A stretch of DNA of 64,000 nt, from positions 24,816,001 to 24,880,000 of the forward strand of contig NC_133024.1 of assembly GCF_048771995.1 (NCBI RefSeq). Reading direction: 5' to 3'. The notes beneath the pieces are model-generated. The model ran no database searches. It worked only from the letters and a program-made list of their open reading frames with translations, and was not told where the DNA came from. The DNA is from Taeniopygia guttata (Eukaryota; Chordata; Aves; Passeriformes; Estrildidae). Positions 13,741-58,305 of the stretch are shown here, piece by piece; within the stretch, counting starts at the first letter, position 1; every line of letters starts with the position of its first letter. The translations under genes were made by a program, and so were the position numbers.

Positions 13741-13855
13741 TAAAGTGGAGACAGCAGTCGGGCGCTCACCGAGGAGACGACACGGGGTGCAGCTCAGCAG
13801 CCACCCCATCCTTCTCCCTCCTCGCCCACAGCGGCGGCCGCTGGAGGGGGTGATG

Positions 13856-13874
13856 ACTACATCTCCCAGCATGC
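13856..13874 (+). promoter_or_regulatory. ZNF143 (Staf/SBS2)-type site, forward
   Basis: ACTACATCTCCCAGCATGC differs by about one base from the classical ACTACAAYTCCCAGCATGC promoter motif bound by ZNF143/THAP11. Its position in a CpG island close upstream of a start codon is typical. Confidence 0.75.
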
Positions 13875-13908
13875 TGCGCGGCAGCACGGCTCGGTCGGGG
13901 CCCGCCCT

Positions 13909-13927
13909 GCATTCTGGGAGCTGTAGT
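13909..13927 (-). promoter_or_regulatory. ZNF143 (Staf/SBS2)-type site, reverse
   Basis: GCATTCTGGGAGCTGTAGT; on the minus strand ACTACAGCTCCCAGAATGC, again the ZNF143/SBS2 motif. It faces the forward copy with 34 bp between them. Confidence 0.75.
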
Positions 13928-14081
13928 CTCGCCGGAAGGCGGGCGGGGGAGGGCGGGCGCTGCGCCTGTGCCACAGCGAGCCCGTGCCGCTGGCCCGGGG
14001 CTCCGAGCGGGGTGGCTTTGGCCAGCTCCTTCCTTCCTGCAGCCCGCACCGGGAACGGGAGGTTTGGCTCTCGGCGTCCTG

Positions 14082-14227
14082 ATGAACCCAGCTAGGGGAG
14101 CACGCTGCCGCCTCAGAAAGTTGGAGGAGAAGGAGGCGGTCTGCCCAGCGATGTAGCCCTGAGCGTGGAACGGCAGCCCTGGAAGGCAGCTCAGTCCTCA
14201 CCGCCCTGATCCCGGAGCATGGGCTAA
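14082..14227 (+). promoter_or_regulatory. Upstream ORFs in the B4GALT3-like leader
   Basis: ATG 14082 opens a 24-codon frame whose last sense codon is itself an ATG directly followed by TAG (14151-14156, a start-stop element). A second mini-ORF, ATG-GGC-TAA at 14219-14227, ends 5 nt before the main ATG at 14233. If transcription starts upstream of 14082, these would strongly limit or gate translation. Confidence 0.45.
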
Positions 14228-14232
14228 AAACT

Positions 14233-14470
14233 ATGTTCCTCTCCCGTATGGAAAGCCACTGTTTCCTGCTGTTCGTGTTTGTCTTCCAAGCGATATTTAT
14301 CCTGATCCTCTACGGAGGCGGACCGTCGCGGGTGTTCCGCGGGATTTTGGAGCCGCCTGGGGCGGGGGATTACTCGAAGCCGCACGACGTGTACACGAAC
14401 CTCAGCCTGTTCACCCGCGCCCCCCGCCAGGACGCCGCGCCCTACTGCTCGGCGCAGTCCCCGCTCCTGG
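14233..14470 (+). CDS. B4GALT3-like coding exon 1
   Basis: Residues 1-79 plus one base of codon 80, donor GTACGT at 14471 (phase 1). Start chosen at 14233 because MFLSRMESHC aligns residue for residue with the human B4GALT3 start MLRRLLERPC. Encodes the membrane anchor and stem; lies wholly in the CpG island. Confidence 0.88.
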
Positions 14471-20400: not shown

Positions 20401-23400
20401 GACTTAATGTAAAAATGCAGGGTTTTTTTTTAATTAGGCAGAAACTCTTGAAGATATCCAGTATATTTTGTATTTAAAAACAAAGTGCTGAATAGAAGAA
20501 CAGTCAATATTGTTTATTTTGCTATCCTGTGCCTGTTCCTGAGAATATAACATCTTTCTTCTTTCCCTGTTGTCATCTGCTTCTCTCAACATTTTGAAGT
20601 ACTGCCTGCTTATCACAGTGTATAAAATGAAATAATATAGAAAATTCAGCCATTGTGGCAAGTGATTATAACATCAAATAGAACTTGAAATGCTTTTAAA
20701 GGTAGAGCTGACATTTTCTAAAGCATTTCTATCCATCCAGGCTTTAAACTGTTTCTCCCCTGCCTGCTGAATATCCACTTGCACATCTTTGTCCTTGAAT
20801 CTCTTCTGAAAGAGGTTTAGAGAAATTTTCCAAATGGGTAGCAAAAGCAGATGTGTCTGTTCATCTTGAATAATTTCCAACGCTGTTTCTTTCAGCGAAT
20901 CCATTTATTCAAGGATCTCATCTAAGCAACACAAGACTGCAGCAGGCAGCCAGTCCCAGGGAGAAGCAGCTGTGCAGCAGCCCAGCGAGACTTGGTGGCC
21001 GTGCCAGGACTCGGGATGCCTGGCAGGCAGTGTGTCCTCCTGGTGCTCAGCTGGCCACCTCTCCCTGCTCCACAGCAAGTGGAGGGACAGGTGGCCCGCA
21101 GGCAGCAGTGAAATTTATCATGGAGCCACCTCTGCATGGGTGTGGGAATCTAGGGCTTCCCTCTGGCTGCCCTGGAAGGCCTGGGACCCTGGCAGGGGGT
21201 CAGGAACACCCCTGTACAGAGCCCCCAGAGACACTGCCTCTGATCTCTGTCCATGGAAAAGAGTTTCCAATCTTACAGGATGAATTACATCCTGTAATAT
21301 TTGATATAAGTAATAATTAGGTGTGGCACGGGTGCAAAAGTAAAATTTTAGGATTCTAGATTAGAGGTTCAAAGGGGACAAGATGGAGGAAATTGGGTGT
21401 GTCTTGTCCTTTTTCTCCTTCTTCATGCCCTCCATGTTTCACTGTAGTGTTGGCATTTTTCTATTGGTTTAGGCTGGGGACACGCTGTTCAACGTAGGTG
21501 ACAGATATTGGCACATTATTGTAAATATAGCACAGGTAGTTTCTGGTATATAATGTTTGTAACATCCCACTGGGGGCAGAGCCCCACACGCTGCCCTGCA
21601 GGACAGACCTGCGGCAGGGCAGCAGAACATGTTAGAGATAAGCAAGAATAAACAACCTTGAAAACAGCACAGACGAATTATGGCTTCTTCTTTGGCAGCG
21701 GGGCAGAAAGACAGAGACTTTCTACAATCTCGGAATCATCAATACCTACAGATTCTGACACACGGGTGTTGTTAATTCTCCTCTGGTGATACAGTAAAAA
21801 AACAGAACCCCGACGCGGAAGAAATGATGATGTCTGGCTCAGAAGGCTGAAGGATAGTTTTATTGAAACTATCCTATATTACATTGATATACTATTTAAA
21901 GAGATACTATTTGATTCTACATACTTACTTCTTACTTACCTAACTAACAAACTCATGACTCTCTGCTGAGAGTCCGAGAAACAGCTGGATCCGATTGGTC
22001 ATTGAACCCAAACAACCTTCACCAAATCCAATCAAGCAACCTCTTCAGGTAAACAATCTCCATACCAAATTCCACATGGGTTAAACAAAGGTGCAGAGAT
22101 AAAGATTGTTTTTCTTCTTCTGTCTGTGCTTCTTCTGAGAGACGGAATTATGTTGCTCTGTCCAGAGAATGTGAATGTCACGTGGTGGGGCTGCTGTCTG
22201 AAGGAGCAAATGTGGGTAGCTGATCTCATAGGTCTGAAAAAAGGTGGAGAAAGTCACTGATCTTACTACTTCTTTTTTCTGTCTCTCCTTACAGTTGGTC
22301 CATTAACCATCACCTTCAGGGTGCTCCCCAGTGAAAGGATGATCATGAAAAGAAATCCTTTTGTTCAGCCTGGTGGCCACTACAAGCCACCTCACTGCTT
22401 TGCCCGCTACAAATCCGCCATCCTTGTGCCCTACAGGAACCAGGAGAAGCACCTTCGCCATCTTCTCTACTACATCCATCCCTTCTTGCAGCGCCAGCAG
22501 CTCAGTTACACTATCTACCTGATTCAGCAGGTAAATCCAAGTCAAATGTGCCTGCTGGGAAGCTCAGCTACACCACTTAAGGGATGGGTTCTGAAGAAGA
22601 AATGTGACCCTTCTGATGAGGAAATACTGTTTTATGCATGGGCTGAGAGGAGGTCAGATAGCTGTCCCACTTCCATGATTTCTAATGACTGAAATACCGT
22701 ACCACGTGTCAAGATCATCATTCTGCTATTAATTGGTTCTGTTGAGGTTTTTTTTTCGTGGGGCTATAAATTTGTCACTAAGTGGTTACGCTGGTTTGAA
22801 AGTAAACCAGCAGAGGAAACGAACCCCCACAAAATCTTGAGGAAAATTTCAGGTCAGAATTACAATTTAATAGAAAAATTACAATAAATGCATTAATACA
22901 AAAACACTGGCTTAAAGTGACAAAGTCAGAGTATAGCCTGTCCCCTTGCTGGTGAGGTTGGTGGTCACAGTCTGATTAAGTGATGGCTGTAGTGTCAAAA
23001 ACGGTGGTCCTGTAGAAGGTCTGGTCCTCCTCTGGGTCCCTCAAACAGTGGTGGTGTCCCAAATCCCCAGACTGAGATTATATTTGGGTCAGGTTCAGGT
23101 GGTACCTCCCCCAGAGCAGGGAGCTCCACAATGGAGTGATGCAGCCCTATGAGGGACAGAGTATTTTTGGAGTCCTTGGTGGCTGTTGCTGCCAGGTGTT
23201 CTGCTGGTGCTGAGTTCGTGATGGCCCCTTAGCAGAGACCCTTCAGGATGGGTGGGACTGCTGCTTCACGGGAGGGAGGTACCACAGCTGAGTCACCGGT
23301 GTGAAGAAAAAGAAACATTATTCTGCCTTGCAGGGTTGCCTCTTTTTTCCTTATGTAGCGCCCAGCTGGAGCCTGAGGGGTGGCTGTGCCCTGGGCAGCT

Positions 23401-26400
23401 GCTGCAAGCAACCCTTCATTAAGAGTTTGTCCCAAAATGATGTGGAGGAAAGTAGAATACAGACTTTGGTTACACCCCACAGTAGTACTTTCATTTTGTA
23501 ACCCAGGACAGTGGTAACATGTATTTTCTTCTTTTTGAGATTTGCATGTGGTTTGTCTGTAGTTTGTCAGTGTGACTACTGAGCAAAACCTGGAGACTAA
23601 ATGCTGAAGTGCAGCTGTATATTCTTGGTCTGTATCAAATACAAACATGTGGCTTGGCCCTGCTGTGGGGCAGCTTGTGCAAGTCAAGCGGCCTTTTGTA
23701 CCTGACATGGACTGGTGTTGCAGAAGATCAGTGGCAAGGGAGCCAGTTTTGGATCCATCAGTTAAAACCAGTATTGGGAGGGCAAAGAAGCTTTTTTGTT
23801 GGACCAAGATCTTTTTCTCATTTGCAAGTTTTGGTAAACAATAGGGCAAAAGTGTTGCTGTGCAAATGTGCACCTGAGGATTGGCTTATGAATCTCTTGA
23901 AAGTCTGCCTTCTTCAGGTGCCAACAGTGCACAGCCCGTGACACAGCAAAGCTGACAGCTGTTGAGAATGTTGTGAAGAGGATGGCTGACATTTTCAAAG
24001 CTGAGGGCATAGAATTTGCAGCCAGTATTGATTCATTCATTTGAAATAAGGCTTTTGGACTAAAACAAATTTTAACTGAGTTATCTACCAACATCTTTGT
24101 TTTGGTGAAGAAACTTAGGTTTTCTTTTCCAGGTAGGGACCGGTTCATTTAACCGAGCAAAGCTGCTTAATGTTGGTGTCCGGGAAGCCATGAAGGATGA
24201 AGAGTGGGACTGCCTTGTCCTGCATGATATTGACCTGGTGCCTGAGAATGATTATAACCTGTACATTTGTGATGAATATTATCCCAAGCACATGGCCAGT
24301 GCCATGGATAAGTTTCAGTACACGTAAGTGCCTCCATTTGCTTTCTGTGGATGTATTCCAGTTGGTGGACTTTGTGTTAGAAAGTACGGGTGGGAACAGT
24401 GAAAGGCACAACCTTTGTGAGGTTTTCTGTGGGTTAGTTTTGCAGTAGTTACTTCCTAGAAAAGGATATTTTTGACCCAAGCATGCAATCTTGAATGTTT
24501 CCTTGCCTGTAGTTCCCTGTTCCACAGTTAGCTCTGCTTGGTAAATGACTGGCAGGTTTCTGTTTGACTGTTTGACTTTCCTTCAAGAAAAAAATATAAG
24601 GTGGGAATATTGGATCATGTGGAATATAATGTGGTAGGATACAGGTACTTCAAACTGATCCAAGATATAAATTTTGAAACTAATTTTACTTTGGTCAGTT
24701 TTGGGAGAAGGTGGTGGGAAACATGAGGGGAATGGAACATGATAGGAATTACACTGGGTTTACTGTTTTGGGGTTTGGCGTTGTCATGAGAGTGCCTGCA
24801 AGTATGCAATTAATGTATGTGTGACTTGGATCACACTGTTAGTTGTGGAGGACAGGCATTAGCCTTCAATAGTGTACTCTGGTTTTTGTTGGTTGGGTTT
24901 TTTTGGAGGGTGATGTTTGTTTGCCTGTTTGTTTTCTCTTTTAGTCTGCCATACAAGTCCTTTTTTGGGGGTGTGTCTGCTGTGACTCCAGAACATTACA
25001 TGAAAATGAATGGGTTTCCCAACACGTACTGGGGTGATGGTGGTGAAAATGATGACATTGCTACAAGGTACCAGTGCACAGGACAGACTTGAAATGGATC
25101 TAAGCTGGCAAGTGAAGCATAGCAGCACCCTAGGAAAGGAACCAATGACATTGTTCCTTAATGTGCTTGCAGTACCATTAAAATCCCAAATGCTGTTGGT
25201 ATTGGGAATGCTTAATGTCAGAATATGCTCAGAACCTGTGAATCCAGTCACTATGCCGGGAAGACAAAGCTTTCTCATTTCTGGGGAGCAGAATGTTATT
25301 TCACATCTTTGTGCCTTCAGTGCAAGGGGTTATAACCACTTGCAGGTGACAAGTGCCTCCACTGATGTTGACAGTCCCAGGGAGGGAAGGAATCTGCAAG
25401 GTTGTTGAATAAGAGGGTACTTAACTAATTCTCAGACAGTTGGGAATTTAAGTTAAGTGCATTTAGGTTGCTCCAAGTGTTACCTAATCACTGATACTTG
25501 GGATTAAGGAGCACAAGGAATTCTATCTTTTGTCTGCAGTGCTGGGTGATGGAGGAGCCTGTGTACCAGTGTGAGTCAGTGACAGAAAGAGTTGATGGTT
25601 TTTCTTGTACTTTGGTTGCCATGGCAGCAGCATTCTATAGTTTAGTTCCAGGTGCTCTGCCTAATGTGAATTCATCAAGTACAGAATCATGGCTGCAGCT
25701 TCTTTATTCATCTTTGGAATTGCAGTGTGCACCTTTATGATCCAGCACTGAGGCAGGCTCATGGGGAGTTTGTAAAACTAAACTGACCATGGAAGCTTTG
25801 TTATTTTTGTCTTACATAATGTGACAAGTTACAGGAGTTTTTTTCAAAGCAGTATTCATCTGGGAATTGAAAGCCAGATTTTCTAATATAGAATTCCTCC
25901 TTTGCCTTTCAGAGAAAGCAAACTAAAAGGTTGTATGGTTGTTTAGAGAGTCAGCATTTGTGAAAGGAATAGAAGGCCAGGAAAATAGATCTTTACATCA
26001 AGTACTACAATGCTGAATCTATTCAGCTGTTCTTAGTATAGTTTAAGCATCTAATTTGGTTTTTGGTACCTGGGGTAGACTCAGGAATGCACTTCCTTGA
26101 AGAGAATCCTGGAAGGCAAGTGAATTATATAGCTCCCAGAATAGCCCTTTCTGGAAGGGAATTAGGGCCTATGTTTTCACAGAAAACTCACACTAACGAT
26201 TAGCAGTGTTTTGGCCCAGATACATGGAGGCTGTGGACAATGCCTGTTAATGATTTATTCACATTCTGAAGTCTCAGCCTGCAGAAGTTAGGAATGAACT
26301 GGCTGTTCTTCAGTGACCAGCTGGGATCTGGATTTTAGGAGGTGCTCAAGCATTCCTTACCATGTAGCAAAAAAATTAATGATTTTTTTTTTTTTTTATA

Positions 26401-28899
26401 TTTTAATGTCTGGTTTTTAAAAATTCTGTGCAAAGATGATTTTTTTTTTTCTGGGATACTGCTTATTAAAAGCAGAGTTAATGAAAAAAACTGCCAGCTG
26501 CTACTTATAGTCACCAGACTGCAGTACTCTCTAACACAAGTTGTAGCAGATACCAGGATCTACATTTTATTAGAAGAAAACACTATTCTAATTGGAGCCA
26601 CTCATGTGTTAACATTTTCAACTACAGGAAAGTCTCTTGGACTCTTCTTAACAGTAAATTAATGTATTAACAATTCAGTTTTAGTCTTATTTGCAATGCA
26701 AAAACCCAAAAGCAAAGCTAGTTTAGTGTTCTTGCTTTTTTGTCTCTTTATGATTAAATGTGCCATAAGCTTATGTTCAGAAAACAAGAAACTGTCTAAA
26801 ACTCCATGTGAAATAATGGAACTATAACACTGTCAGTGAAGTGTTACAATCATCTGATGGCTCTAGCCTAACAGATATTTTCAATTCTGTAGCCTTTCAG
26901 CTTTATCACATTCCTGCTGTATCAGATCCCGATGGAACGCAGTCAAATGCTGCAAACATGCCAGTTAGATAACCTCAATTGGGCAAACATTCATTCTTAC
27001 ATTCACAGGAATTTTCTCTGCCTAAGGGCTGTCCTGTGATAACAGAGGTTTGGTAGCCCTAGCATTATTGAAGGCACTTTTTTTTGGCAAAGTAACATAG
27101 GTGCTATCAGCAGTGGGCTGGAGTTGCTTGAAAGTCACCCAAAATGCTGGGCTTAGAAGCTCTGTTCTGGAATTCTGAGCCTTCAGTTCCTCTTCTCTTA
27201 TCTAACTGTACTGCAGTCGAGTTTACATATGTTTGTCTGGTGCCTGTATTTATGCCTAATCTTTTATGAACCAGTCTAATCAGGCCATCTGAACGAATGG
27301 CACTTCTCGAAGAACAGAGAGGCTTAATCTGGTTTTGAAACTCAGAACTGGCTTCCTTTCAGAAACTGCAAGTTTGAGATCTTTGGGTTTTTTTTTTTCC
27401 TTAAAATTTAGGGGAACCTCTAGGCGAAAAGCTCTGCTCTTAGGAGGAAGTGCAATAATGCTCATTAGTCAGATTCAGGGGAACTACTCTTGAATGCTCT
27501 ATATGTTGTAGTTCATTCCCTGCTTGCTCTAATCCCCTTGTGCCCTGTCAAAGTGCACTGCAGCTGGGAGCTTTCTAGCCCAAGCCTGGCCTAGAGCCTG
27601 CTAGAGAAGATCATGTGGCCCTGTGCTGCTTCTGCCCTCTTGTTTTTATTGGATTAGCACTGAAAATCATCTCTGACCATAAGCCTGGAAGTGGCATCTC
27701 TATGCCCAAGCAAACAGTTTTGTATGTTGTTTTAAAGGATTCACTTGGCAGGAATGAAAATAGTCCGGACATCACCTCACCTTGGACGCTACCGAGTGAT
27801 GGACTACAATGAAGAGAGAGAGATCCAAGAGCCTTGGAGGAGGTACCTGGTGGGGCTGGGGGCTACTCTGGGCCTTGTGGCAGCTTGGCTGTTGCTGTCA
27901 TCTTCCCCAGCACAGGCTACATATGCCTCATGTCACTGCTGCTTTTGCTGCTTTAGGAAGGCTATTTAAAAGCAGCCCCCAGTCAGTTTCAACTGAATCA
28001 TTCAGTTCCTGTCTTCACATTTGAAGGGTTTTTCCTAGGTTCCTCTCTTTTCTTCCTATTGTGAAGGACACATGCCAGCTAGCACATCAGATTTAAACAT
28101 TAAATTGTACAAGGAGTAAAACTTAAAGAAAAAAATACTGCTTGCCTTAAAAATAGGGAGATTCCAGTTTAAAGAGGCACTGTGTTATAAGTTCCCAATA
28201 TTAAAACCTTGCTATTCAGTCTGTGTGGAGTTACGAGGTGCCATTAAAATAGTGGAAAGCAATATTCTAGTTTGAAGACATGAGAAAGGTGCTATGAGAG
28301 ACTTTATCAAAGACTGTTTTATATAGAAGAGCTGGAGGAGGGTGTTGGGTCAAGTATGGTAGAGGCTTCTCATAGCGACAGTGCAGATTTCTCTTTATCG
28401 TCTCAAAACTCAGGTTTCCATAACAACCCTGTCAAAAATCTACCTACAGCAGCCTATGTACACCGTGGCTGCAAACTTCTGCGTTGCACTCCCAGCTCTC
28501 TCTAAGCTACTGACAGCTTCTTGGTTTTTGGAGACTCTAGCTGCCACCTCACTGGTCTCCCTCCTCTGATCAGGGTCCAGTCCAAATCATCCTCCTTGTT
28601 TGGAACACTCAGTGTGAACTCCCTCTAATCTGTTCAGACTGTATAATGGGAAGAATTGTCTCAGGGCTTTTCTGCCCTCTGAAGACACTTTCTTCTGCAG
28701 CTTCAGCTGCAAATGTTACCTTCTTTCTTCTAACTGTATATATTCTTCCTCCCTCAGGCCTCCTTCCCAACACAACACCAGAAAAACATGGAAAGCTGAT
28801 GGAATGAATACATTACAGTTCAGGCTCATTTCCAGGATTAAGCATCCTCTTTATACCAAGATCACTGTGGACATTGGATATGTTCCTCCATTTTCTTAA
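14233..28899 (+). CDS. B4GALT3-like beta-1,4-galactosyltransferase paralogue with altered catalytic motif (6 exons, 344 aa)
   Basis: Type II Golgi protein of family GT7. Exons: 14233-14470, 22295-22530, 24133-24323, 24945-25067, 27738-27842, 28758-28899; exons 2-6 measure 236, 191, 123, 105 and 142 nt, as in canonical B4GALTs, and the frame is open. Membrane segment about residues 11-27; DYSKPHDVYTNLS (46-58) and YCSAQSPLLVGP (71-82) match B4GALT3. Retained: [10 protein letters not shown] (164-173), the DXD motif as DID (190-192), four fold cysteines (72, 114, 185, 204). Changed, in bovine B4GALT1 numbering: Arg191 to Gln129, Tyr289 to Phe228, Trp314 to Asp253, Asp318 to Asn257, His347 (metal ligand) to Tyr286. 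Exon 5 aligns with B4GALT3 without gaps, so the His change is not an alignment artefact. Normal galactosyl transfer is unlikely; it may be a pseudoenzyme or have new specificity. It could be annotated as B4GALT3 in birds; orthology is unsettled. Confidence 0.9.
18415..18436 (+). repeat. Poly(T) homopolymer, 22 bases
   Basis: Uninterrupted T run in intron 1 of the B4GALT3-like gene. Length is likely variable between individuals and prone to sequencing error. Confidence 0.85.
20674..20904 (-). pseudogene. Unrecognised protein-like ORF, 76 aa, antisense in intron 1
   Basis: The frame beginning MDSLKETALEIIQDEQ and continuing through FQKRFKDKDVQVDIQQ and FKAWMDRNALENVSS has the amphipathic, charged composition of a real helical protein, unlike the other chance ORFs here. 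Upstream the same frame reads LDEILE and then a TAA just before the Met, which hints that the coding similarity began further upstream and is now interrupted. No intron, poly(A) tail or neighbouring exon was recognised. It may be a retrocopy fragment, a stray exon or chance. Family not recognised. Confidence 0.3.
21141..21760 (+). mobile_element. Solo LTR of an endogenous retrovirus (class II-like)
   Basis: Ends in GATTCTGACA at 21760. A TATA-like TATATAAT lies near 21550 and a poly(A) signal AATAAA near 21648, giving a U3-R-U5 order on the plus strand. The left edge is ambiguous. TGTGGGAATC at 21141 is preceded by CATGGG, and CACGGG follows the right end (21761-21766), which fits a 6-bp duplication with one CpG-to-TpG change. 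Alternatively a start at 21333 (TGCAAAAG) is preceded by an exact CACGGG. No interior genes. The near-perfect duplication suggests a fairly young insertion. It resembles LTRs abundant in songbirds, from memory. Confidence 0.7.
21780..22182 (-). mobile_element. LTR fossil, minus strand
   Basis: On the minus strand it begins near TGACATTCACATTCTC (about 22180) and has AATAAA close to its other end (TTTATT at 21858-21863 on plus), the order expected for an LTR. The CTGAGAGTCCGAGAAACAGC and GAGATAAAGATTGTTT segments resemble songbird ERV LTRs from memory. Exact edges and duplication not resolved. Its edge lies only about 110 bp before exon 2 of the B4GALT3-like gene. Confidence 0.5.
22295..22530 (+). 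CDS. B4GALT3-like coding exon 2
   Basis: Residues 80-158, 236 nt, acceptor TCCTTACAG, donor GTAAAT, phase 1 in and 0 out. Holds the PPHC cysteine and the nucleotide-binding loop ILVPYRNQEKHL, in which the second Arg of the usual PFRNR/PHRNR motif is Gln. Also [18 protein letters not shown], close to the family [18 protein letters not shown]. Confidence 0.93.
22783..23418 (-). mobile_element. LTR fossil in intron 2, minus strand
   Basis: Starts on plus as TGGTTACGCTGGTTTGAAAG with an ATTAAA-type poly(A) signal on the minus strand near 22865. The ACACTGGCTTAAAGTGACAAAGTCAGAGTATAGCCTG and CTGGTCCTCCTCTGGG blocks resemble a common songbird ERVL-type LTR, from memory. The right edge is uncertain: TTCA at 23415-23418 is followed by TTAAG, against CTAAG before the left edge, an imperfect 5-bp duplication. 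Looks like a solo LTR. Confidence 0.5.
24133..24323 (+). CDS. B4GALT3-like coding exon 3
   Basis: Residues 159-221 and two bases of codon 222, 191 nt. Carries [10 protein letters not shown] and the metal-binding DID in HDIDLVPENDYNLY. Donor GTAAGT at 24324, phase 2. The acceptor CAG is followed by GTAGGG, so this junction also resembles a donor. Confidence 0.94.
24945..25067 (+). CDS. B4GALT3-like coding exon 4 with variant catalytic motif
   Basis: Residues 223-262 plus the junction codons, 123 nt, acceptor TCTTTTAG, donor GTACCA (phase 2). Encodes LPYKSFFGGVSAV and NTYWGDGGENDDIATR. In nearly all B4GALTs these are LPY-QYFGGVSAL and WGWGGEDDD: the donor-selecting Tyr is Phe, the substrate-binding Trp is Asp and the Asp proposed as catalytic base is Asn. 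Confidence 0.94.
25068..27737 (+). other. Intron 4 of the B4GALT3-like gene
   Basis: 2.7 kb without recognised genes. Contains poly(T) tracts at 26382-26398 and near 26440. Ends in a weak pyrimidine tract before the exon 5 acceptor. Confidence 0.8.
27738..27842 (+). CDS. B4GALT3-like coding exon 5
   Basis: 105 nt, the family-typical size. IHLAGMKIVR matches VRLAGMKISR of B4GALT3; then GRYRVMDYNEEREIQEPWRR, where canonical enzymes have the Mn-binding His (GHYKMVKHRGDKGNE). Tyr286 stands in the His position. Acceptor TTTTAAAG is pyrimidine-poor; donor AG|GTACCT. Confidence 0.88.
28758..28899 (+). CDS. B4GALT3-like coding exon 6 (last)
   Basis: 142 nt, acceptor TTCCTCCCTCAG, stop TAA at 28897-28899. 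Encodes TWKADGMNTLQFRLISR and HPLYTKITVDIGYVPPFS, the standard B4GALT C-terminus. It lacks the long proline-rich tail of mammalian B4GALT3. Confidence 0.92.
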
Positions 28900-30855: not shown

Positions 30856-30997
30856 CTATGAGACCTTGGGCTGCATGCTGAAGTCCACTGTGATGTTGAC
30901 ATACAGTGGGTTGTGTTCCACGGAGAGCAGTTTATAGGAGCAGGAATTCAGCCCGTCTGTCTTCCATGTTCTAGAGACCTGACGGAGAAGCTTCATC
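30856..30997 (-). CDS. B4GALT4: B4GALT4 coding exon 6 (last)
   Basis: 142 nt. Acceptor TTTGTCCTCAG, then [21 protein letters not shown] and [13 protein letters not shown], near-identical to human, ending SMQPKVS and TAG at 30858-30856. Confidence 0.95.
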
Positions 30998-33900
30998 CTG
31001 AGGACAAAGAGGAGAAAAATCTTCACTGACGTGCACAGGAGTTTTGAGCTCTTTCCCAATGGTAGTAAATTTGGAAGCAAAGCTACTGCTATTTTTTATC
31101 TACTGGAAATATAAAGTCCTGTTCCTGTTTCCAGCACAATCATATATGGGGAGAAAAATCCTTCGGCTCAGTCTCTGAAATCATGCTTAAATGATACCTA
31201 TGTATGTGTAATTTTGGAAGTTTCTAGGGAACACCACCCAGTCAGTTCTAAGATCTCATGTTGAGAAAACAGCTACCAGCTGTGAACAACGTTGTCACGG
31301 GGTGGATGTCCCCCAGAGCCTCTGGGTACCACAAAAAGCCTGTTTGGCCTGGAGCAAAGAACTTGTCCCCCAGGTGCCTGGCTCAGCCACAGACCATGAC
31401 AGAACAAACCTGTTCTTGACCCACCTCTCTCGATTCTCCTCATTACCGTGGTCACGGTTGTGGAAGATCATCGTGTACCTGGCCACATCAGCAGGTGGCC
31501 TCACCACTTTCATCTTCTGCATCTCAACCCTGCAAGAAGGAGTAAGAAGTGTTGTGAGGAAGACAACACCTATAAACCAGCTGTTAATGAAAAAAAACCA
31601 ACAATTGGAGGCTTCATTTCTTGTAGATGCTGTGGAAGCAACTATAGAGTTGTAAAAGCTCATCTGCATCTCTTTCACAACCCATTTTGCCAGAGAAATG
31701 AAGCTCAGAGTTGCATTCCTGGAGAACAGACTTGGGGGGGGGGGGGGGGGGGGGGTGACAGATACATCTTTCTTTTGAACAGAAGCAAGTAACTACTTAC
31801 AGTAGAGATGTAGAGCTTTAAGCACACATTATACAACAGAGCACATTTATATCAGTATTGACTACTGTGTACTCCCTGTAGCAAGTCTCCACATGTTCTG
31901 CAACAAGTTAATCTCAACTTCTGCAATAAAACCCCTATACTTGCTGGTTCTCCAAAAATAAATTAAAAGCTTGTTTTCTTTTTTAGTAGCTGCCAGACAG
32001 CTGCAAAACTTTTATTTGTTCATATTAAGAGAATTTCTTTGAGGACAATGCCAGAAGCACTGAGCCCTGTGCACAGATTTAAATGTCTGACATCAGACAT
32101 TTAAATACTGATACACACCCCACTGCTCGCTAGTTGGAGCTTTTGACCCTACACATATCTGTGGAGCACAGCTTTGCCCTGACAGCAGAAAGGAAGAAAC
32201 TTTTTAACAAGGGAATTCTAGTTACTCATCAGCTGAAAGAGAACTAGGAAACCAAGATTTGAAAAAACTGAGCCCCTTAGAGATTTCCATGACTTTGTAG
32301 CAGTAAATTAGCAAAGAACAACAACGAATGATCTGAAGAATTTCTCTGTGATACACGCCTTAGGAGGGGCCCCAAACGAGACTATCACCTTTGTTCTAGA
32401 GGCAGATCAACAGAATGTGAGAGTCCCCAGCCCCGAATTCTGAAAGCACCGAAGGGATGCTGCCATCTGCTGACTTCCCTCGGGAGGGCTCCAAGGATCT
32501 CTGCGCAAAACCCCACCAGACAGCAAGCTTGCCATTACCTACCCCTGCAAATTCGGTCACCAGCCCAGCCCAAGGCACAAGCCAAGTCCAGCTGCAGAGC
32601 ACACACTGGGTCAGGACTTGGTTTCCCACCAAGACCTCAAGAGATGCAAAGTTACAAAGTGCCACACAAAAACGTCACTTATTTCCAACCCCTTTCAAAT
32701 GTCACAGAGACCCTCTGTGCAAATCCCTCAAGACCCTCAAGTAAATCTTGCTGTCCTGCTGCCCATGGGAAGCCAGGGGATAAAATAGCACCAAGCCACC
32801 CCCTAAACTATAAAAATCAGCTCCCAGGAGGTCATAGAGAACTTGGTGTGTCTAGGCAAGAGTAAGAAGGAAAAAACAGTTGTGGTTAAGGGACAGAAAT
32901 CCATACCTGAAGCAGACCTTTCAGATTTCTTCAGACAGAGCTGACCAATCTGCTGAACTGACACTGAGAAACACTTTTCATTTGGAAGTTCTTAACTTCT
33001 AACACACTTTTATCCCCTGTGCATTTACATAACATCACAAGGGATATAAATTTTATGTCACCGAAATGTATGTTTGCATATTTCAGCAGCAGAAAAGGAT
33101 AACAAGTTAAAAATGACAGAGTATAAACCAAGTTACAAACTGATAGGTTCTGCCAGCAGAGCTTGTGGAGTTGTGGGTTCTTATCTGCTGTTTGCTTGTG
33201 GTTTTTTCTGCATTTACTAATAGCAATGCAGGATTAGTGGTTTATTCCTAAGCAAAGGGCAAAAGATCAACATAGAAGTTTGGTTGACTTCTGTGTCCCA
33301 CTAAACCTCTCCAGCCAACAGGTTTTTCCTTCTTTGACAGGTACATCTGCAAAATGAATTTTCACAAGAGCAAAGGGCTTATACATATATGTGTAGCCTT
33401 TCTAAAATTCAAGTTATTTGCTATCTTCCCTATAATCTACATTACACAAATACAAACTAACCCCTACTTGGAGTAAATCCAGTAGTCAAAAATGCAAAAC
33501 ACCCAGTCCTACCAAAACACTCCCACATTCTAGCAAAGCACTGGAACTCCATACATTTGTGCTTCTCTGGCAAACCACACTCCAGGCTTCAATTATAACC
33601 AATTTCCAAGCAAGAATAAAACTGCTGTGTGTCTGAGACAAAACCAAACCAACCCAACCAAATAACTTAACCCACACCCCCAAAAGTGGTGTGAGGAAGA
33701 GGATTGGGCATCAGACATACCTAACCCTTGCAAAGAGGAAACTGCTCACAGAACTGCATCTTGGACTTCACATCTCCACTGCAGTACTGTTCAGTGCTGT
33801 TCTGAGTGAAGGCCCCTGGGGTGTTTTGCTCTTGGAGGCTTAGTGTGAAGTTGGGTCAATTTTTAAAATTTCTTAAAACTAGTTCTTCATTGTTTACCTG

Positions 33901-36900
33901 ATTCGAAGGTCATCATCTTCTCCACCCCAACCCCAGTAGCTGTTAGAAAATCCATTCACTTTGGAAAACTGATCTCTTGTAAGAGCAGTTACACCTCCAA
34001 AATATCCCCGGTACCGTAACCTAGATGTACAAGAAGAGAGAATGAAAAATTAAAAGTCAAATTTCATCAAAAATGAAAACATCACCCTGATACTCCAGAT
34101 CTAGACTTGACTTTCATAGGGTTAAGGGTGCACAGATCCTTAAAAGCCAGTCCTGTTCTCTTCCTCTTTTCACAAAAAGATGGTTATTTGCTTTAGGCCA
34201 GAAAAAAAATTACCTCTCTAACTGTGAGAACAGAGTCTTATTCAGAAGCTTCTCTCTCTTTACACAATTCCCCTGCCAGACAAGTAGATGCTTCCTTTCA
34301 GGGACTCTCAGGTATAGAAAAGCAACAAAGCTATGCACTAATGTAGTGGAAGCTCTGCAATAACAACAGCAAGCCATTGATTATCTCAGAGCTGAATCTG
34401 AAAACCTTGGAAAGAAATCAGCTCACTAAATGTCTTAGGCTATTCTGCTAATTGCTTTCTACACTACAACACAGCCTCTACTATCTTACCCCAGCCCATT
34501 GAGAGGTGATGGGCACATGGCTGCAGATTACATTTGTACATGTATGTGAATCTAAACAGATTAACAAATTGCCAGGGCTAGGAAGTAGTCATTGTGGCAT
34601 TGGACATGCCAGACAGTGCTTATTGTTATTTCTGGCTTACCATGAACATAATTTTAAAAACAACAAAGGAGAAAATAAACACAAGACCCTCAACACAACC
34701 TCCCTCGAGACTATTTTTCCTGGCTGATTTTTGCTCACAGCATCACAGAGGAATTTTGAATGTCAAAGAGACCCCTAGAGATCACGTAATCCAACCCCTC
34801 TGCTCAGATCAAGGTCTGCTGGAGCAACTTGCTGAGGAACATGTTCTGTCAGATTCTGAGCATCTCCAAGGATGGAGACTCCACAAGCTCTCTGGGAAGC
34901 CTGTTTTGTATGTGACCATCCTCACAATAAAAAAGGAACTTTTTTTCATATATTTAAGTGGAATTTCCTGTGTTTTAGTTTGTGCCCATTACCACTTGCC
35001 TTTCACTGAGAAGGGTCTGGCTCCGGAGTCTCTACTCCCTTCTGTCAGGTATGTATACATGTTGCCAAAATCTCCCTCTGCCTTCTCTCTGCTAAACAGT
35101 CCTAGCACACTCAGCCTCCCTCACAGGTCAGATCCTGCATTTCCTTAATCATGTTCTCAGGCTCTCCTCAGACTTGCTCCAGTGTGTCCCAGAACTGGAC
35201 ACAGTACTCCAGGTGTCATCTCCTTGGTGCTGAGTAGAAGGGAATAATTGCCTCCCTCAATCTGCGGGTAACTCCCCCCACAAGATGCCTCTGGCCTCTG
35301 TCACAAGGGCACACTGCTGGCCCAAGGTCCTTTCTGGTAAAGCGGCTTTCCAGACAGTTGCTGCACCAGCAGCTATTGGTCACAGAGTTATTTCTCTCCA
35401 GGTGCAGGACACTGCATTTCCCTTTGTTGAACTTCCCTGTTCACATTCCTGTTGGCCACATTCTCCAGCCTGACAAAGGCCCTGCTACATAAACCTACAT
35501 AAACCAACCCTGTGAATTTCTGTCCTCTGAAAACCTGCTGAGGTGCAATCCGCTGCATCTTCCTGGTTACTGATGAAGACTCTAACTAGTATCAAACTCT
35601 GATGTAAACCACTAGTGACTGGCCTCCAGCTGGACTTTGCTCTACTGATAAGAACCCTTTGAGCCCAGCAGTTCTGGCAGTTTTAGCTCATCTCACTGTC
35701 CACCTACCAGTCCATACTTCATCACTTTGTCAGTGGGGCCATTATGGGAGACAGTGTTAAAAGCCTTCCCAAGATAAACATTATCCACTACTATACCCTC
35801 ATCCAAGCTAGTCAAAGTCAGAGAAGGCTATCAGCTTGGTCAGGCCTGACTTATGAACAGATTTGTTCTGTCTCCTTTATCTCCCCCCGTGGCAGAGACA
35901 AGCCACAAGGTAGAGGAAGTTCCATCAAGTTTTAATTACACATTACTACTTGAGACTTCTGCCATGGATACTCCAGAAGAATGCAGTAAACAAATGGAAT
36001 GGACAGCAAGGAGGTCCCAATAAACAGGAACAGCAGGACAGAGCCCTCCCCAGCCCTGCTTTCAGGACAGTCACCACCAGGACCACATCCCATTCCAGCA
36101 GCCTGACAGTTTGGGAACTGACTTCCCATGCACACACCCCACTGCTCGCTTATTCACCCCTACACCACTGCAGAGGCAGACACTAAAGCAGCCAGAGCTG
36201 GGGTGCACTGGGAGAAGTAGGGCCAGCAGGACAAGGGGAGGATTCTCCTCCCCTATTCAGCCCTAGAGAACCCACATCTGGAGTGCTTTGTTCAGTTCTG
36301 GTCTCCACAGTTCAAGAAAGACAAGGAACTGCTGGAGAGGGTCCAGCAGAGGCCACAAGGATGATGAGGGGTCTAGAGCATCTCTCTTATGAGAGGAGGC
36401 TGCGGGAGCTGGGCCTGTTTAATCTGGAGAAGAGAAGACTGAGAGGGGATTTCATCAATGCAAATAAATCTCGGCAAGGTGGGTGCCAAGGGGATGGTGC
36501 CAGACCCTGGAATGGTTTCCACTGACAGGATGAAGATTAATGGCCATAAACTAAAACACAAAAAGTTCCACCTCGACATGCAGAAGGACTTCTTTCCATG
36601 GAGGGTGGCAGAGCACTAGCACAGGCTGCTTAGGGAAGTTGCCTCTCTGAAGGCATTCCAAACCCACTTGAGTTCCTGTGTCACCTGCTCTGGGTGACCC
36701 TGCCTTGGCAGAGGGATTGGACTGGATGATTCCCAGAGGTCCCTTCCAACCCCATCCATTCTGTGATCCTGTAACCAGGACAGTGCTGGTTACTCACTCA
36801 ACCCTCCTCAGGCAGCACAGAACTGGCAGGGCCCAGGCATAACTTGCTCCCAGCTGACATCACCTGCAAAAATGCACCTCTGTAACAACTCCTGTAACCA

Positions 36901-39900
36901 TCCTTCCCTGAGGACAAGGGAACATCAACTCCTCTGGAATTCTTAAAATTGACTGAAGAATACATACAATAGGAATGGTCAGGAGGAAAAGATGTTGTGC
37001 TGGTCTTGAGGAAAAACCTGAATTAAAATAGAAGAGTTTTCCCAACTTTATCTTCAAAGCTTTAATATATGTCTTCTGTCTAAAAGAATTCAAAACTGAG
37101 CTGTAGCTTATGTAGCTAAAGATAAGGCACTGGATCTCCAAAGGCACACGGCTGCTGAGATTACTGCACACCGCATCACAATAGAATATAGCCCCTGGAA
37201 GAAAAATAATTCCCCCCATCCCACCCCAGGAGACTAATAACACCCCAAAACCAAAAAACAGACAAACAAAAAAACACCTCCCCCAAATAACACCCCAAAA
37301 CCAAACCAAAACATAAAAATATCCCACAAAACACAAACCAACCCACATTTCCACCCATTTTAATACAGAACATGGATGGGTTCAGTTTTCTCTACCTCAT
37401 ATGAGCAACATGTCTCAGTATGCTCACCTCAGTTGTAGCAAAACACTGAGGTCACCCAACTAGGATTTCATCCTGTGGTATCAGCTCAGTTCAAGTACCA
37501 TTCTTAAGCTCAAAATACGAATTCCTTCAGACATGCCTTGGAAGCAGAGCATTATTAACCCCACTTCATGGATGTGTAAACACAGGCAATGATACAGAAA
37601 AAGTATTAATTATCAATTCAAGTTGAATTATCAAATTCAAGCCACAAGCATTCCAGTGGAATACTCTGCAAGGCTCTCCAAGTGCTCCAAAAGCCTGTCA
37701 CAAACCTAGTAGGTATGTACTTGTTCCAGTTTTCACTAAATGACTGGAAAGTGAATATTATTCTGTGTCAGTATTGGCACATCCCACCTCTTTCTCATAT
37801 ATTTAACAAAGGAAATGCAGAAGCAAAGCAGAGCTTTACTTCAAAGTACTTTGAGATCAGCTTTTGAAAAGCTCACTTCTAATCAATATTTAGAGTGACG
37901 TGACATTAACTGAATCTTGAAAGAAACAATTTCAATGAAAACACTTTTAGTCATTAAATTCACCAAGCTCAGGAGCCTTTTCTCTCTGACATGGACTGAA
38001 CTTGACTTTTCACTTTGAACGATTTATATCACATGACCACTTAGGGGACTCATTTAAAAATCAGAATGATCCTGTGTTATACACTGTTCAGTCAAATAAT
38101 TAAAGGACAGTCCTATGCCTTGGCAAATTCCCACAATATGACATTACCTCTTCAACAGAAGAAGTGGCAAGTCTGTTACAATAAGATCACACCTTCAAAT
38201 CACAGGATCAGGAAACTTGCAAATGTGTATCTAGCTCTGCCAGAAGGTCTCTGCACGACTTCTGGGACATTGCTTTCCTCTCAAAACACCCCTTAATTGA
38301 ACTCCAGAAACCAGAACAATGACAATGATCATTTGTGCAGGTGACCACAGGGCTGACTGCAGAGGTGTCTGTCCAGTTCTGTACTCCAGAGAGGTGAAGT
38401 GTCACCATCTGAAACCTCATGTCATGAGGAAAAGTAGATACCAGCACACCGCTCCATCAGAAGGGGAACATTATCAGTAACATGGCATTTCCCTGTAGGC
38501 ATTCTTTCCATATTCCTGGTTTCCTACCTGTATCCAGTATTGTTCCTGCCAACTACAAGGTGCTTTGGTTGTGTGTCACACATATAAATGTTAAAGTCAT
38601 TTTCTGGCACCAGATCCACATCATGGAAAATGAAACAGTCCCAGTTTGCTTCTTTTAGGGCCTCTAGGTATCCTACATTCAGCAGTTTGGCTCGATTAAA
38701 TTTGGTGTTGCCAGCCTGTGGAAAAGAATGGGAAAAAACAACTCTGAAGAAGGTACCACAGCTTTTGAACCAGAGCTGCTCCCGGGCATTTGTTCTGATT
38801 GCATGGTTTGCAACCACACCCATGTGGTTTTTCCAGCACCTTGGGAGCAGTAACTGCACAGAGTGCCCCATCACACTGGCACAGCATCAGAGTGGCCAAC
38901 GGTGCAAAGTGTTTCTCCAGCCTCTATTCATCACAAACACACCCAGCCAGGGCCAGGAAAGCCTGTATTTAGCTGGGTACCACAAGTGTGACTGTTCCAT
39001 GGCTTAACAGCCCTTCTGCACCAGTCCTGGAGTTACCATCAGGCTCCATGGCAGAAGAGGTACCAGTAGTCTAAAAACTGGTGTTCCATACAACTTTGTC
39101 AGTAAGGCTCATGGAAGTTCTTTGTAAAAAAAACAAAACCAAACCAAACCCCCTTGCTAATTAGTCTCTAGATGTCAGAGCTCTTGCCATGAATGATTTA
39201 TGCCTGTCCCCTCAGCTTGGAGGACAGCAATGCTGAAAGAGTTCCCTGTATTTCCTCAGCTCACACATAAGTGGCAGAGTGGGTTTGAAAAGCAGGTCTC
39301 TTCATTTTTACCTCCTGCCTATAACCTGATGATGCTGTTGCAGGGGACATACTTCTAGCACAGAACTTCACCTTTTTACCAGTCTTCATTGTTTGCTTTT
39401 GCTGTAAGTTACTTAGTATTCGCTTTTCAAAATCAAATTTTTCACCTCTGAGGTGCAAGTTTATCCATACACACCTGAAAGGTTTGTAAGCTTATGTCAG
39501 CATTCAGTTTGGAGCAAGACATGTGCTTATCTTGCTATTTTCATTTTTTACCTGGCTGCACACTGTACCAGTCTGCAGAAGGCTTTCTGCTCTTGAGGAC
39601 AAAGTGAGGATTTGCCTCAAATTCCCACTTGGGAACAAGAGGGCCAACCCCAGCCCTCCCAGACACAGACAGGACAGTAATTTTCCAGAGCAAGGAACCT
39701 GTGTACTTGAAAGAATAATTTTTAAGAAAATGTTTTCAGGATAAACTGCTTGGAATTCTAGCAAATTTTCTAGAAGGTGCCTGGACAGAAAGAGGGTCAA
39801 TGGAAAAAGAGAAAGAAGCTGGCCTCCGCAGGCTGAGAGAAGGTGAGCTGCAGGGAAAAGCTGTTGTATATAAAGCATGTTTTAGTGCTCTAAAAAGTCA

Positions 39901-42900
39901 CACTTTGCTCTAAAGTAGGATTTGTTCACTAAAACAACCATCTGCTCCAGAATGAAAAAGATTTATGGGATTTATGACTCCATACCTGCAGTCTGAAAAA
40001 TACAATACAGTGCTGATTCTGAGAAATTATGAGATGGATAATCAATTGCATCCATCCTCTGGAGAGAAATAATTTTCCAGTAAAAAATTTAGATACAATT
40101 CACCCAAAATCAGGTTGTCAAACTTCTGAATGGGTTTTATTTTTGTGTGTGTTTTTTTTTTTTCTTAAAATGTCCCGTATATAAAAATACCCATGACACA
40201 GTCTTCTCCTGGGGATGAAAACATAGGTTATTTAGTGAACAGCACAAATCAGATGTGGTACAGGTACATTTGAAAAACATCACTTGTGTCGAGTATCAAA
40301 CCCAGCTAAGTTCAGGACAGCCTCTCCCATCTGCTTAAGTTCTCTTTTCCTCATCCATGCAAGCCACTACAACAGCCAAATGCCTGCTGACACAGCTTTC
40401 CACATCAAACATACTGAACAAACAGCAAAATTTACTCATCTTTTATTGAGGACAGAATTGTCTCCCTTTCTTTCTATGGAAGAATAATATTAACCACAAG
40501 ACAAATTTATGTTGGGAAAGAAATTTAGGGATTACAAACTCGCATTGTTTTGAGTGCAGCACTCATGATGCATACATTTAGAGGAGCACAACTTTAGAGA
40601 TGTTAAAAGCTGCCCATAAAGAAGAAATCTGGAGTAAGCCCTCCAGTGGCTCACAGAAAAAGCTACAAAAGGCCCATTTCATCTATCTCCAAAGCAGACT
40701 GTGTATTTTAACAGTTACATCCTGTTTGTCTTTCCTCAAAAGAGACTTAGAACTACTAACGACATCACAAATCAAGAAATAAAATGGATTTGCCCCAGAA
40801 GAGTTTTGCTAGACCCACTTTCCAATCTTTGGGCGTGCCTATCTACATGGAAAAGGTATGTGAAAGCTTCCACCCTTCCAAGCACAATCTCTGAGAGAAC
40901 AAGTTCAGACGCGACACTGCTCTGCTCATCAGACAAAACTTCCATACTTCTGAATTACTTTTTGCTAACATGACAACAGCAATTCTCCACATATTTCAAT
41001 AAGTTAAAAAGATATGCCCATTCTCCCAATAATTTATTCCTAACCACTGCTTCCTGCTAGAATAAGCCAGTAAATATAAGATTATACTGCATATTAATGC
41101 AGAAAAAAGCCCTCATTTTTCAACTCTAGAGGCCACATGATGACTCTAAATAGTGAAAGAACAATTCATTCCAAGCAAAAATATCATGCTGTAACTTTTA
41201 TTGCTGTTCTGCTGAGACATTCAGATGAGCAGAAGCATAAGAGTGGAAGCTTTCACATAGAAAGCACTGTCTCATACTGATTAATTACTCTAGGCTCTTT
41301 AATCAGGAGGGAAGAGGAACTGTATTAATTTATCACCTTTTTCTTCTGCTGTCTCAAATGACTTTTTGGAGCCAAAGCAGAACATATAAGTAAACGACAG
41401 TAATAGAAAGAAAACATAACAGAAGATCAAGAAAAAGACAACATACTACAAAAGAGAAATATATAATGCTTTTAACACATGCAATTGGAACATCAGCACC
41501 TTGATGAAAGACAATGTGGCACAGGTCTGCTTAAGTTTTAGCCACTGAAACAGCATAGCTAGAAATGCAATTTAAGAACTTTATAAATCTTTCAGCAACC
41601 AAGTGCCCTTCCATGACAACTACTTCTCACCACACTTGCTGGGCAAATAAAGCAGCTACAAACAGCTGCTGTTGTGTTTAGCTTGAGAAAGCAGAAGTAA
41701 AACCATACAAAACACACAACTTACTAAGCACAAGAGCCTGATGGGAGAGAAAGGCTAAAGACAAACTGAGGCCTTCTATCCAAACTCCAAATGTGAAGAC
41801 AGAACAGGCCAGCCTAGTTACATGTGTGGATACTGCAAGAGGAGTCAGTTGCATTAGCAGCCCAAAAGATGCTTACCTTGCATGCTAACTCAGAAACACC
41901 AAGTTACTTAGACTGAGAAATTAACACCAGCTAAAGGCACTGCCAATACTCCCCAGCCCTGAGATCCAGGAATGCCACCAGCAGTGGCTGCAGGCACTGC
42001 TGCATCCCTCAGCAAGCAGAATTGTTGGAAGCAGGCTTGGAGGACTGATGTCAGATAGCAGAGGCAGCAGAAGCCTCTCCTCAGGCTGCAGGGCACAGCC
42101 ATCACCCTCACCCACACAGCTCTGCACAGCTGCCTCACCTGGTGAATGACATAGATGCCATAATCCAGCTGCTGCCTTTGCAGGAAGGGGTGGAGGTGCT
42201 GCAGGAGGTATAGCAGATGCTTCTCCCGATTGCGATGTGGGATAAGGATGGCCACGTGCTGCAGGGCTGAGCAGTCCATAGGGTGGTACCGGCCCTTGGC
42301 TACCTGAGGGTTCTCCTTTTGCACCTCTTCCAGTGTCACAGATGGTTTGAAGGAGAGTTTGCTGGCACCTCCTGTAAGAGAAGCACAAGAACCTTTCCTG
42401 AGTCATTTCAGGTTGTGGCTGTTCCAGTCACGTAATGAGGCACTATGTAATCAGTGTAAGAAACCCAGGTTCAAGCCCCAACTGGCTTCCCTGCCCTTCC
42501 AAGACAAAAGCAGTACGACAAGGATTCTATGCAGGCAGTGGAAGGAGAGGATGTCAAGCATGTTAGTTGCTTAAACTGACTGTGAAGTAGTGGCAATAAA
42601 ATAAAAATATTTTTTTAAAAACCCTAGAGAGGTTCTAAGCTACTGCGGAAGGATTGTCCAGGAATGACTGCCAGGGCAAAGCAAAGGAGAAGAAAGTGGA
42701 ACAACTGTGGCTATCAGAAGTCATCAGTACCTAAAGCACAAAAAAAGCACAACAGGATTAAGGCTATAAATTAGTAAAATAAAAGATAGCAAGGCTTTCT
42801 GTAGCCAAATAAAATTTTCATCCCTTCTCTTGCACTGAGCTATAATCCCAGCTCCTCTGCACTCAGCAAGCCCATGAAAAAGTACAATACAGACAACTGT

Positions 42901-58080: not shown

Positions 58081-58207
58081 GGGAATGCTGAACCGCCTGG
58101 GTTTTGGTTTTGTTTTTGTTTTTTGGCGCTCCGAGAGTTTGGGCATCGCAGCATTTGCGTGGCTGGTGCTCCCGAGCAGCTGAGTCTCACTTCCTCTCAA
58201 GACGCAT

Positions 58208-58305
58208 CTCTGGGAAGATGTCCCTGCCCGTGGCAGGGGGTGGAGCCGGCGAATCTTTAAGGTCCTTTCCGACCCGAGCCATTCCGTGATTCTGCGGCTC
58301 TGTGA
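58208..58305 (+). mobile_element. CR1 LINE 3'-terminal stub, plus strand
   Basis: CCCTGCCCGTGGCAGGGGGTGGAGC, ATCTTTAAGGTCCTTTCCGACCC and CCATTCCGTGATTCTG form the last ~100 bp of CR1. It sits at the outer edge of the B4GALT4 CpG island. Confidence 0.88.

Follow-up and report, generated by a model that had tools for sequence, protein, structure and literature searches.

A probable pseudo-glycosyltransferase encoded by the B4GALT3-like gene of birds and other sauropsids

The active site of the beta-1,4-galactosyltransferases has been described for B4GALT1 in structural and mutational work, which we draw here from excerpts of three papers; residues are numbered throughout as in the bovine protein. 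According to the first of these, Trp310 (bovine 314) swings into the pocket, touches the phosphate of uridine diphosphate galactose (UDP-Gal), anchors the acceptor and is called crucial; the Trp loop, WGWGGEDDD, is described as strictly conserved in B4GALT1-7 and their animal orthologues; and the closing lid brings Met340 and His343 (bovine 344 and 347) to the manganese ion (Mn) (PMC6198961). The same excerpts report that the H343A change in B4GALT1 (bovine H347) abolishes homomers, that M340E (bovine M344) lowers activity by 94%, and that Tyr285Phe (bovine 289) leaves activity unchanged (PMC6198961). In excerpts of the other two papers, D318 and D320 are given as essential (PMC4202792) and metal site I is composed of D254, H347 and M344 (PMC7565966). 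Here we analyze a B4GALT3-like gene of the zebra finch Taeniopygia guttata, located on the forward strand at 14233-28899 of a 64,000-nucleotide stretch (hereinafter the window, positions 24,816,001 to 24,880,000 of NC_133024.1), in which much of this site is altered within an intact reading frame. Comparison with its relatives suggests that the product is probably a sauropsid-wide pseudo-glycosyltransferase that is kept for a non-catalytic role, most plausibly as a Golgi partner protein.

An altered active site in an intact gene

Exon 4 of the gene (24945..25067) carries a degraded Trp loop, WGDGGENDD in place of the family sequence WGWGGEDDD, through W314D (codon GAT, 25036-25038) and D318N (AAT, 25048-25050), and also encodes SFFGG with Y289F (TTT, 24961-24963). 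The lid, encoded by exon 5 (27738..27842), has lost two of the three metal ligands, namely H347Y (TAC, 27805-27807) and the third ligand, M344V (GTG, 27796-27798); the remaining one, D254, is present. R191Q lies in exon 2 (CAG, 22441-22443, within PYRNQ) and F360P in exon 6 (CCT, 28759-28761). Retained in the same protein are the DXD motif (D252/D254), F226, R228, E317, D319, D320 and R334, as well as all four cysteines at 134, 176, 247 and 266. Given the changes at all four of W314, D318, M344 and H347, it is very improbable that the window protein acts as a beta-1,4-galactosyltransferase.

An initial annotation made from the letters of this DNA had named five of these changes (W314D and D318N in the Trp loop, Y289F, H347Y and R191Q) in an otherwise intact gene that keeps its DXD motif and cysteines, all of which the sequence bears out; M344V and F360P extend its list. 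The span that it gave, 24945..27842, encloses its other changes but not R191Q, which lies upstream in exon 2. The roles that it ascribed to the residues were compared with the excerpts of the three papers cited above; at Tyr289, the excerpted report finds B4GALT1 activity unchanged by Tyr to Phe, and for this reason Y289F is no evidence of inactivation (PMC6198961).

The gene consists of six exons joined into one open frame of 344 codons, with consensus GT/AG boundaries at all five introns and exon lengths of 238, 236, 191, 123, 105 and 142 bases, the last including the stop codon. Exon 1 (14233..14470) encodes the cytoplasmic tail, a hydrophobic segment that we read by eye in the translation as a putative type II membrane anchor, and the presumed stem; exon 2 (22295..22530) the start of the catalytic domain; exon 3 (24133..24323) the [10 protein letters not shown] core and the DID sequence that constitutes the DXD motif; and exon 6 (28758..28899) the C terminus. 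The joined protein matches both domains of the GT7 family, PF13733 (Glyco_transf_7N; 190.5 bits, cut-off 27) and PF02709 (Glyco_transf_7C; 79.4 bits, cut-off 23), and its nearest named relatives among the matches listed are from oscine passerines. Immediately upstream of exon 1 lies a GC-rich stretch (guanine-plus-cytosine content 0.66-0.75 in successive segments over 13800-14199).

Transcription and splicing of the B4GALT3-like gene are suggested by one relative, P0010, a full-length open frame of 361 residues that is 94% identical to the Tympanuchus protein and is found on two contigs, neither longer than 2349 bases, whose only source tag, lgn, we take to denote assembled sequencing reads. 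Because the same frame spans 14.7 kilobases in the window, P0010 must represent either a spliced transcript or a retrocopy.

An internal control is provided by B4GALT4, which lies tail-to-tail with the B4GALT3-like gene on the reverse strand (30856..44165) and is identified by its joined frame of six exons and by its relatives. The site of this protein is canonical ([10 protein letters not shown]344 and H347 present), and exons 4 to 6 of the two genes are equal in length (123, 105 and 142 bases).

Orthologues and the history of the losses

Residues were counted in a single alignment of 265 proteins, to which bovine B4GALT1 and both proteins of the window had been added, with gaps excluded in each column, so that the number of rows varies. 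W314 is kept in none of 46 sauropsid B4GALT3-like rows and in every anamniote (34/34), B4GALT3 (53/53) and B4GALT4 (118/118) row, and the pattern for H347 is nearly the same (1/46, 31/32, 52/53 and 120/121, respectively), the sole sauropsid exception being the gecko Euleptes (P0023). The sauropsid rows cover birds, a crocodilian, turtles, the tuatara and squamates; the shark, ray-finned fish and amphibian B4GALT3-like orthologues in the alignment keep both residues. Y289 is likewise kept in no sauropsid row (0/46, with Phe in 45), as against 32 of 34 anamniote, 53 of 53 B4GALT3 and 118 of 118 B4GALT4 rows. Losses at other positions are less complete in sauropsids: M344 is kept in 14 of 49 rows (32/32 in anamniote B4GALT3-like rows), D318 in 15 of 44 (34/34) and R191 in 7 of 49 (33/34). 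In the lid, F360 is kept in 0/44 and I363 in 1/45 sauropsid rows, and these two positions also differ in anamniotes and in B4GALT4. Other parts of the site are well preserved in sauropsids, with F226 in 52/52 rows, R228 in 51/52, G292 in 46/46, E317 in 41/43, D319 in 43/45 and D320 in 44/45, as are the cysteines at 134 (45/48), 176 (48/49), 247 (52/52) and 266 (52/52); on the acceptor side, F280 is found in 41/52 and Y286 in 42/46.

Thus, the check proposed in the initial annotation, whether the changes are common to orthologues, gives a clear answer for W314 and H347, which are lost in 46 of 46 and 45 of 46 sauropsid rows, and close relatives do not have the canonical sequence; D318N, however, is not fixed even among passerines, two of which (P0003 and P0006) keep the aspartate. 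Taken together with the conservation of the remaining protein described below, these shared losses give good support to the reading as a selected pseudoenzyme; the protein is, with high probability, dead as a beta-1,4-galactosyltransferase.

The coelacanth Latimeria row (P0107) has Tyr at 347 and Thr at 315 with W314 retained, possibly a separate partial erosion of the B4GALT3-like gene or a faulty gene model; the Polypterus B4GALT3-like row (P0074) has Phe289 and Glu320 but is otherwise canonical in its site.

To map the losses, we used a tree from which the eleven trait columns had been removed and which contained 31 of the 52 sauropsid, 29 of the 34 anamniote and 14 of the 53 B4GALT3 rows. 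Loss of W314 requires one change on this tree, that of H347 two, and those at 289 and 360 three each; R189, R191, D252, D254, G315, M344 and D318 require 4 to 6 changes each. This pattern corresponds to a single founding loss, that of W314, on the sauropsid stem, after which other catalytic residues eroded repeatedly. From the general age of sauropsid divergence, the founding loss would date to approximately 280-320 million years ago.

With respect to the identity of the paralogue, the protein search found 759 relatives, and among the best 120 of these the named orthologues are mostly labelled 'beta-1,4-galactosyltransferase 3' or '3-like'. In a tree of 69 rows, a single clade (support 100/98) unites the 39 B4GALT3-like rows, which span cartilaginous fishes, ray-finned fishes, the coelacanth, amphibians and sauropsids, and this clade is separate both from B4GALT4 and from a 13-row clade with the B4GALT3 rows. 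Within it, the 20 sauropsid rows form one clade (100/100) that is divided between lepidosaurs (95/83) and turtles with archosaurs (92/81). A second tree, computed with FastTree from all 268 rows after removal of the catalytic columns, separates the 52 sauropsid B4GALT3-like rows from all others by one branch (support 100) and does likewise for the 121 B4GALT4 rows; the B4GALT3 rows also need one change, although with a weak support of only 45. As judged from these trees, the window gene is a separate jawed-vertebrate paralogue, the third member of the B4GALT3/B4GALT4 group. The earlier designation as a B4GALT3-like paralogue is therefore apt in the sense of a separate paralogue and would mislead if taken to mean B4GALT3 itself; true B4GALT3 with an intact site is also present in birds and squamates. 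In six species (Dromaius, Varanus, Rhineura, Sceloporus, Carettochelys and Aptenodytes), the longest contig has the same length in the B4GALT3-like and the B4GALT4 records, which we read as conserved linkage of the two genes. No mammal is found among the best 120 of 759 relatives in the protein search, nor among the best 120 of 1941 hits in a profile search in which 8000 candidates were scored, and the gene is likely to be absent from mammals.

Five further rows (P0095, P0096, P0100, P0101 and P0106), four of them from sharks or rays, form a clade (99/98) outside both B4GALT3 and B4GALT3-like. Isoforms that skip exon 4 (P0012, P0013, P0019, P0020 and P0026) were considered as a special feature of the B4GALT3-like gene and dropped, because 311-residue B4GALT4 records without PF02709 (P0200, P0217 and P0219) suggest the same skip.

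Constraint on the protein and competing explanations

In the catalytic domain, the window protein is 61-69% identical to its squamate orthologues, compared to 78-82% for B4GALT4 of the same or near species, and the alignments to the window protein contain only 0-4 indel columns (1 to 4 in squamates), except for one turtle isoform row with 27. Neutral simulations of the window coding sequence, restricted to substitutions, yield 66% identity at 0.2 substitutions per site, where the stop-free fraction is 0.003; at 0.3, identity is 55% and none of 300 runs keeps a stop-free frame. Open frames combined with 61-69% identity are thus not to be expected in the absence of selection. Full-length frames are present in birds, a crocodilian, turtles, the tuatara and squamates, and the cluster around the falcon row has 287 members. 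Across the N-terminal 30 residues, which include the anchor, mean pairwise identity is 0.79 in sauropsids, 0.59 in B4GALT4, 0.84 in B4GALT3 and, over deeper time, 0.50 in anamniotes, which shows constraint, though not one peculiar to the B4GALT3-like protein. As far as protein sequences tell, a measure that differs from a test of nonsynonymous against synonymous substitution rates, the sauropsid B4GALT3-like protein is under constraint.

This constraint does not extend to the parts that close the donor site. Mean pairwise identity is 0.38 in the sauropsid lid (17 rows), compared to 0.84 in B4GALT4 (16 rows) and 0.57 in anamniotes (12 rows); for the Trp loop of the same rows, the values are 0.64, 0.97 and 1.00, respectively. 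Site-specific rates were ranked over 268 sites for 31 of 52 sauropsid rows, the controls being 29 of the 34 anamniote rows and a sample of 29 B4GALT4 rows from sauropsids. This ranking places 18 catalytic sites at a mean percentile of 0.66 in sauropsids (P 0.0082 against random sets) and 0.27 and 0.30 in the controls, and the eight lid and Trp-loop sites among them at 0.79 (P 0.0004; controls 0.33 and 0.26). The result for the 18 sites is stable when one long row is dropped (0.66, P 0.0072) and when only the 16 non-avian rows are used (0.68, P 0.0020). With no prior selection of sites, the 20 with the greatest rate excess over both controls include seven in the lid (N353, N356, D350, K352, E354, P355 and I363), W314, G315 and D318 in the Trp loop, the metal-site residues H347, M344 and D254, and R189 and R191, which are assigned to UDP; the remaining five are L141, P139, L140, E384 and H194. 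Thus, the two marks of a pseudoenzyme coincide in this protein-level comparison: catalytic residues are lost, and the rest of the protein appears to be kept by selection. Retention for a non-catalytic function is, on this basis, likely.

Several observations weigh against this interpretation. D318 persists in the 15 sauropsid rows mentioned above, the two passerines included, and the DXD motif is kept in many (D252 in 40/52 and D254 in 44/52 rows), such that nucleotide binding may remain in a protein that also keeps R228, E317 and D319. The nine cleft-floor sites, at a percentile of 0.41 (P 0.17), are not significantly slow in sauropsids; compared to 0.24 and 0.29 in the controls, this value implies that the cleft floor, too, has lost some constraint. 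In the 14 birds alone, the acceleration of the 18 catalytic sites is not significant (0.58, P 0.105), and the lid as a whole (345-365), at 0.86 in sauropsids and 0.47 in B4GALT4, is already fairly fast in anamniotes (0.64). Moreover, the sauropsid protein is evolving about twice as fast as B4GALT4 (median distance ratio 2.10, range 1.01-3.26, in 55 pairs from the same or near species), and part of the signal may reflect general relaxation. Finally, although the residues that form the salt bridge at the rim of the B4GALT1 dimer are largely kept in sauropsids (E317 in 41/43 and R334 in 41/47 rows), the loss of H347 argues against the same dimer, given that B4GALT1 homomers need this residue.

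A transferase with a new function, that is, with an altered pocket for another donor, acceptor or metal, or one that works slowly without the Trp lid, would account for the largely kept cleft floor (F226, R228, E317, D319, D320 and G292), for the nearly uniform Phe289 (45/46), and for catalytic sites that are not significantly faster than average within birds. However, positions 314, 315, 318, 344 and 347 and the lid vary among sauropsids without settling on new residues, and the Trp loop carries a deletion in P0015 and P0034. A re-tooled pocket is further disfavored because only 217, 289 and 300 in the catalytic domain, along with one anchor site, have acquired a new common residue (with thresholds of 90% for sauropsids and 85% for anamniotes); the conservation of R359, the codon of which spans the exon 5/6 junction, is confounded by that junction and was therefore not counted toward acceptor binding. 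We consider such a transferase unlikely, and the pair of options offered by the initial annotation, a selected pseudoenzyme or a new donor or metal dependence, accordingly narrows: the shared losses of W314 and H347 in a constrained protein favor the former, and the variability of the former active-site positions weakens the latter. A lectin-like pseudoenzyme that binds glycans ending in N-acetylglucosamine (GlcNAc), or some cargo, without transfer is improbable in our estimate: F280, Y286 and D319 are largely kept, which speaks in its favor, whereas the acceptor-holding W314, F360 and I363 are lost, with the qualification that 360 and 363 differ in anamniotes and B4GALT4 as well.

Slow decay of a gene devoid of function would fit the roughly 2.1-fold faster evolution, the repeated erosion of catalytic residues and, as a loss there, the lack of mammals among the best 120 listed in either search. 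It is quite improbable in view of the full-length frames across sauropsids, the 287-member cluster, the few indel columns, the anchor identity and the rarity of stop-free frames in the neutral simulation at 66% identity. Identity with the pigeon-cloned beta4GalT(Gal), a bird enzyme that makes Gal-beta-1,4-Gal and presumably belongs to another family, GT92, is very improbable as judged from distribution. Excerpts of the relevant report list genes similar to the pigeon complementary DNA in zebrafish, Xenopus, anole, zebra finch and turkey, an overlapping spread, but no similar gene in the chicken genome (PMC3602017); other galliforms (Tympanuchus and Phasianus) carry the B4GALT3-like gene, and chicken is not named among the matches listed. 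That the changes are an artefact of assembly or annotation in a single bird genome is refuted by the absence of W314 from all 46 sauropsid rows with a letter there, which come from many records; error in a single assembly is thereby excluded and such an explanation has a negligible probability.

Returning to the pseudoenzyme, we propose that the Trp-loop Trp and the lid His, which close the donor site and hold Mn, were lost at the sauropsid stem, most likely ending the function as a UDP-Gal transferase. The folded protein would sit in the Golgi membrane and act by binding, most likely serving an active Golgi transferase as heteromeric partner, stabilizer or specificity subunit. We put forward this partnership tentatively, by analogy with known cases; B4GALT4 is a candidate by family and linkage only. 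Conceivably, although we hold this more specific scenario to be doubtful, the gene encodes a dedicated non-catalytic B4GALT subunit, lacking in mammals and derived from an ancient transferase that was killed at about the time sauropsids arose. Such a subunit would switch how an active transferase chooses its acceptor or is assembled in the Golgi, with a function comparable to that of alpha-lactalbumin for B4GALT1.

Genomic neighborhood and comparison with known systems

Elsewhere in the window, open frames at 634-1329 and 2371-2829 on the forward strand match B3GAT-type glucuronyltransferases (GT43, PF03360), with B3GAT1 as the best PDB match (E-value 1.3e-52), so that three Golgi glycosyltransferase genes (B3GAT-type, B4GALT3-like and B4GALT4) seem to lie in a row. 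Long open frames with a high content of Arg, Ala and Pro overlap at 57430-58260 and are perhaps the promoter or first exon of some other gene; the one frame searched against Pfam had no match. The conceptual translation of 36200-36800, in intron 3 of B4GALT4, resembles what we take to be a transposable-element relic. Nine tandem repeats were recorded in the window, some intronic and none relevant to the B4GALT3-like gene; no repeat of at least 40 bases was found within 14000-44200. Searches gave no match in Rfam, and none in NCBIfam, which as a library for bacteria and archaea would not be expected to yield one.

No description of the B4GALT3-like protein as inactive or as a pseudoenzyme was found among the papers listed in searches of the open-licence PMC literature. 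The gene offers a before-and-after case, active-looking in sharks, fishes and amphibians, and dead-looking yet constrained in birds and reptiles, in which non-catalytic roles of Golgi glycosyltransferases become directly testable. The sauropsid data contradict the published statement, in the excerpted account, of strict Trp-loop conservation across the family and among animal orthologues (PMC6198961). Furthermore, glycan models would be misled by the label 'beta-1,4-galactosyltransferase 3' on these genes of birds and reptiles.

The closest counterparts are the anamniote B4GALT3-like proteins, such as Xenopus 'beta-1,4-galactosyltransferase 3-like 1' (P0037), which are orthologous by the tree and similar in length, anchor and fold core (the turtle P0014 and Xenopus proteins are 63% identical); they differ in keeping W314 (34/34), M344 (32/32) and H347 (31/32), and we assume them to be active. 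B4GALT3 and B4GALT4 have the same pair of Pfam domains but belong to separate clades and, isolated rows aside, have an intact site. The best of 15 PDB matches, the bovine B4GALT1 structure 1pzt (E-value 3.9e-85), likewise lacks W314, with Ala visible at this position in the alignment; we take it to be the W314A mutant. It carries one engineered change, whereas the sauropsid protein is also without metal and lid residues. Beyond the family, two described pairs parallel the proposed partnership. Cosmc is a chaperone 27% identical to its client T-synthase and without DXD, for which Mn and UDP-Gal are reported not to bind in excerpts of the published account (PMC5493369); this pair belongs to another family (GT31) and its client is known, whereas the sauropsid B4GALT3-like protein mostly keeps DXD and its partner is only proposed. 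Fam20A, as described in part of a further report, is a pseudoenzyme that activates its active paralogue Fam20C as a heterodimer (PMC5865150); these proteins are kinases, and the activation shown for Fam20A is what we propose for the B4GALT3-like protein.

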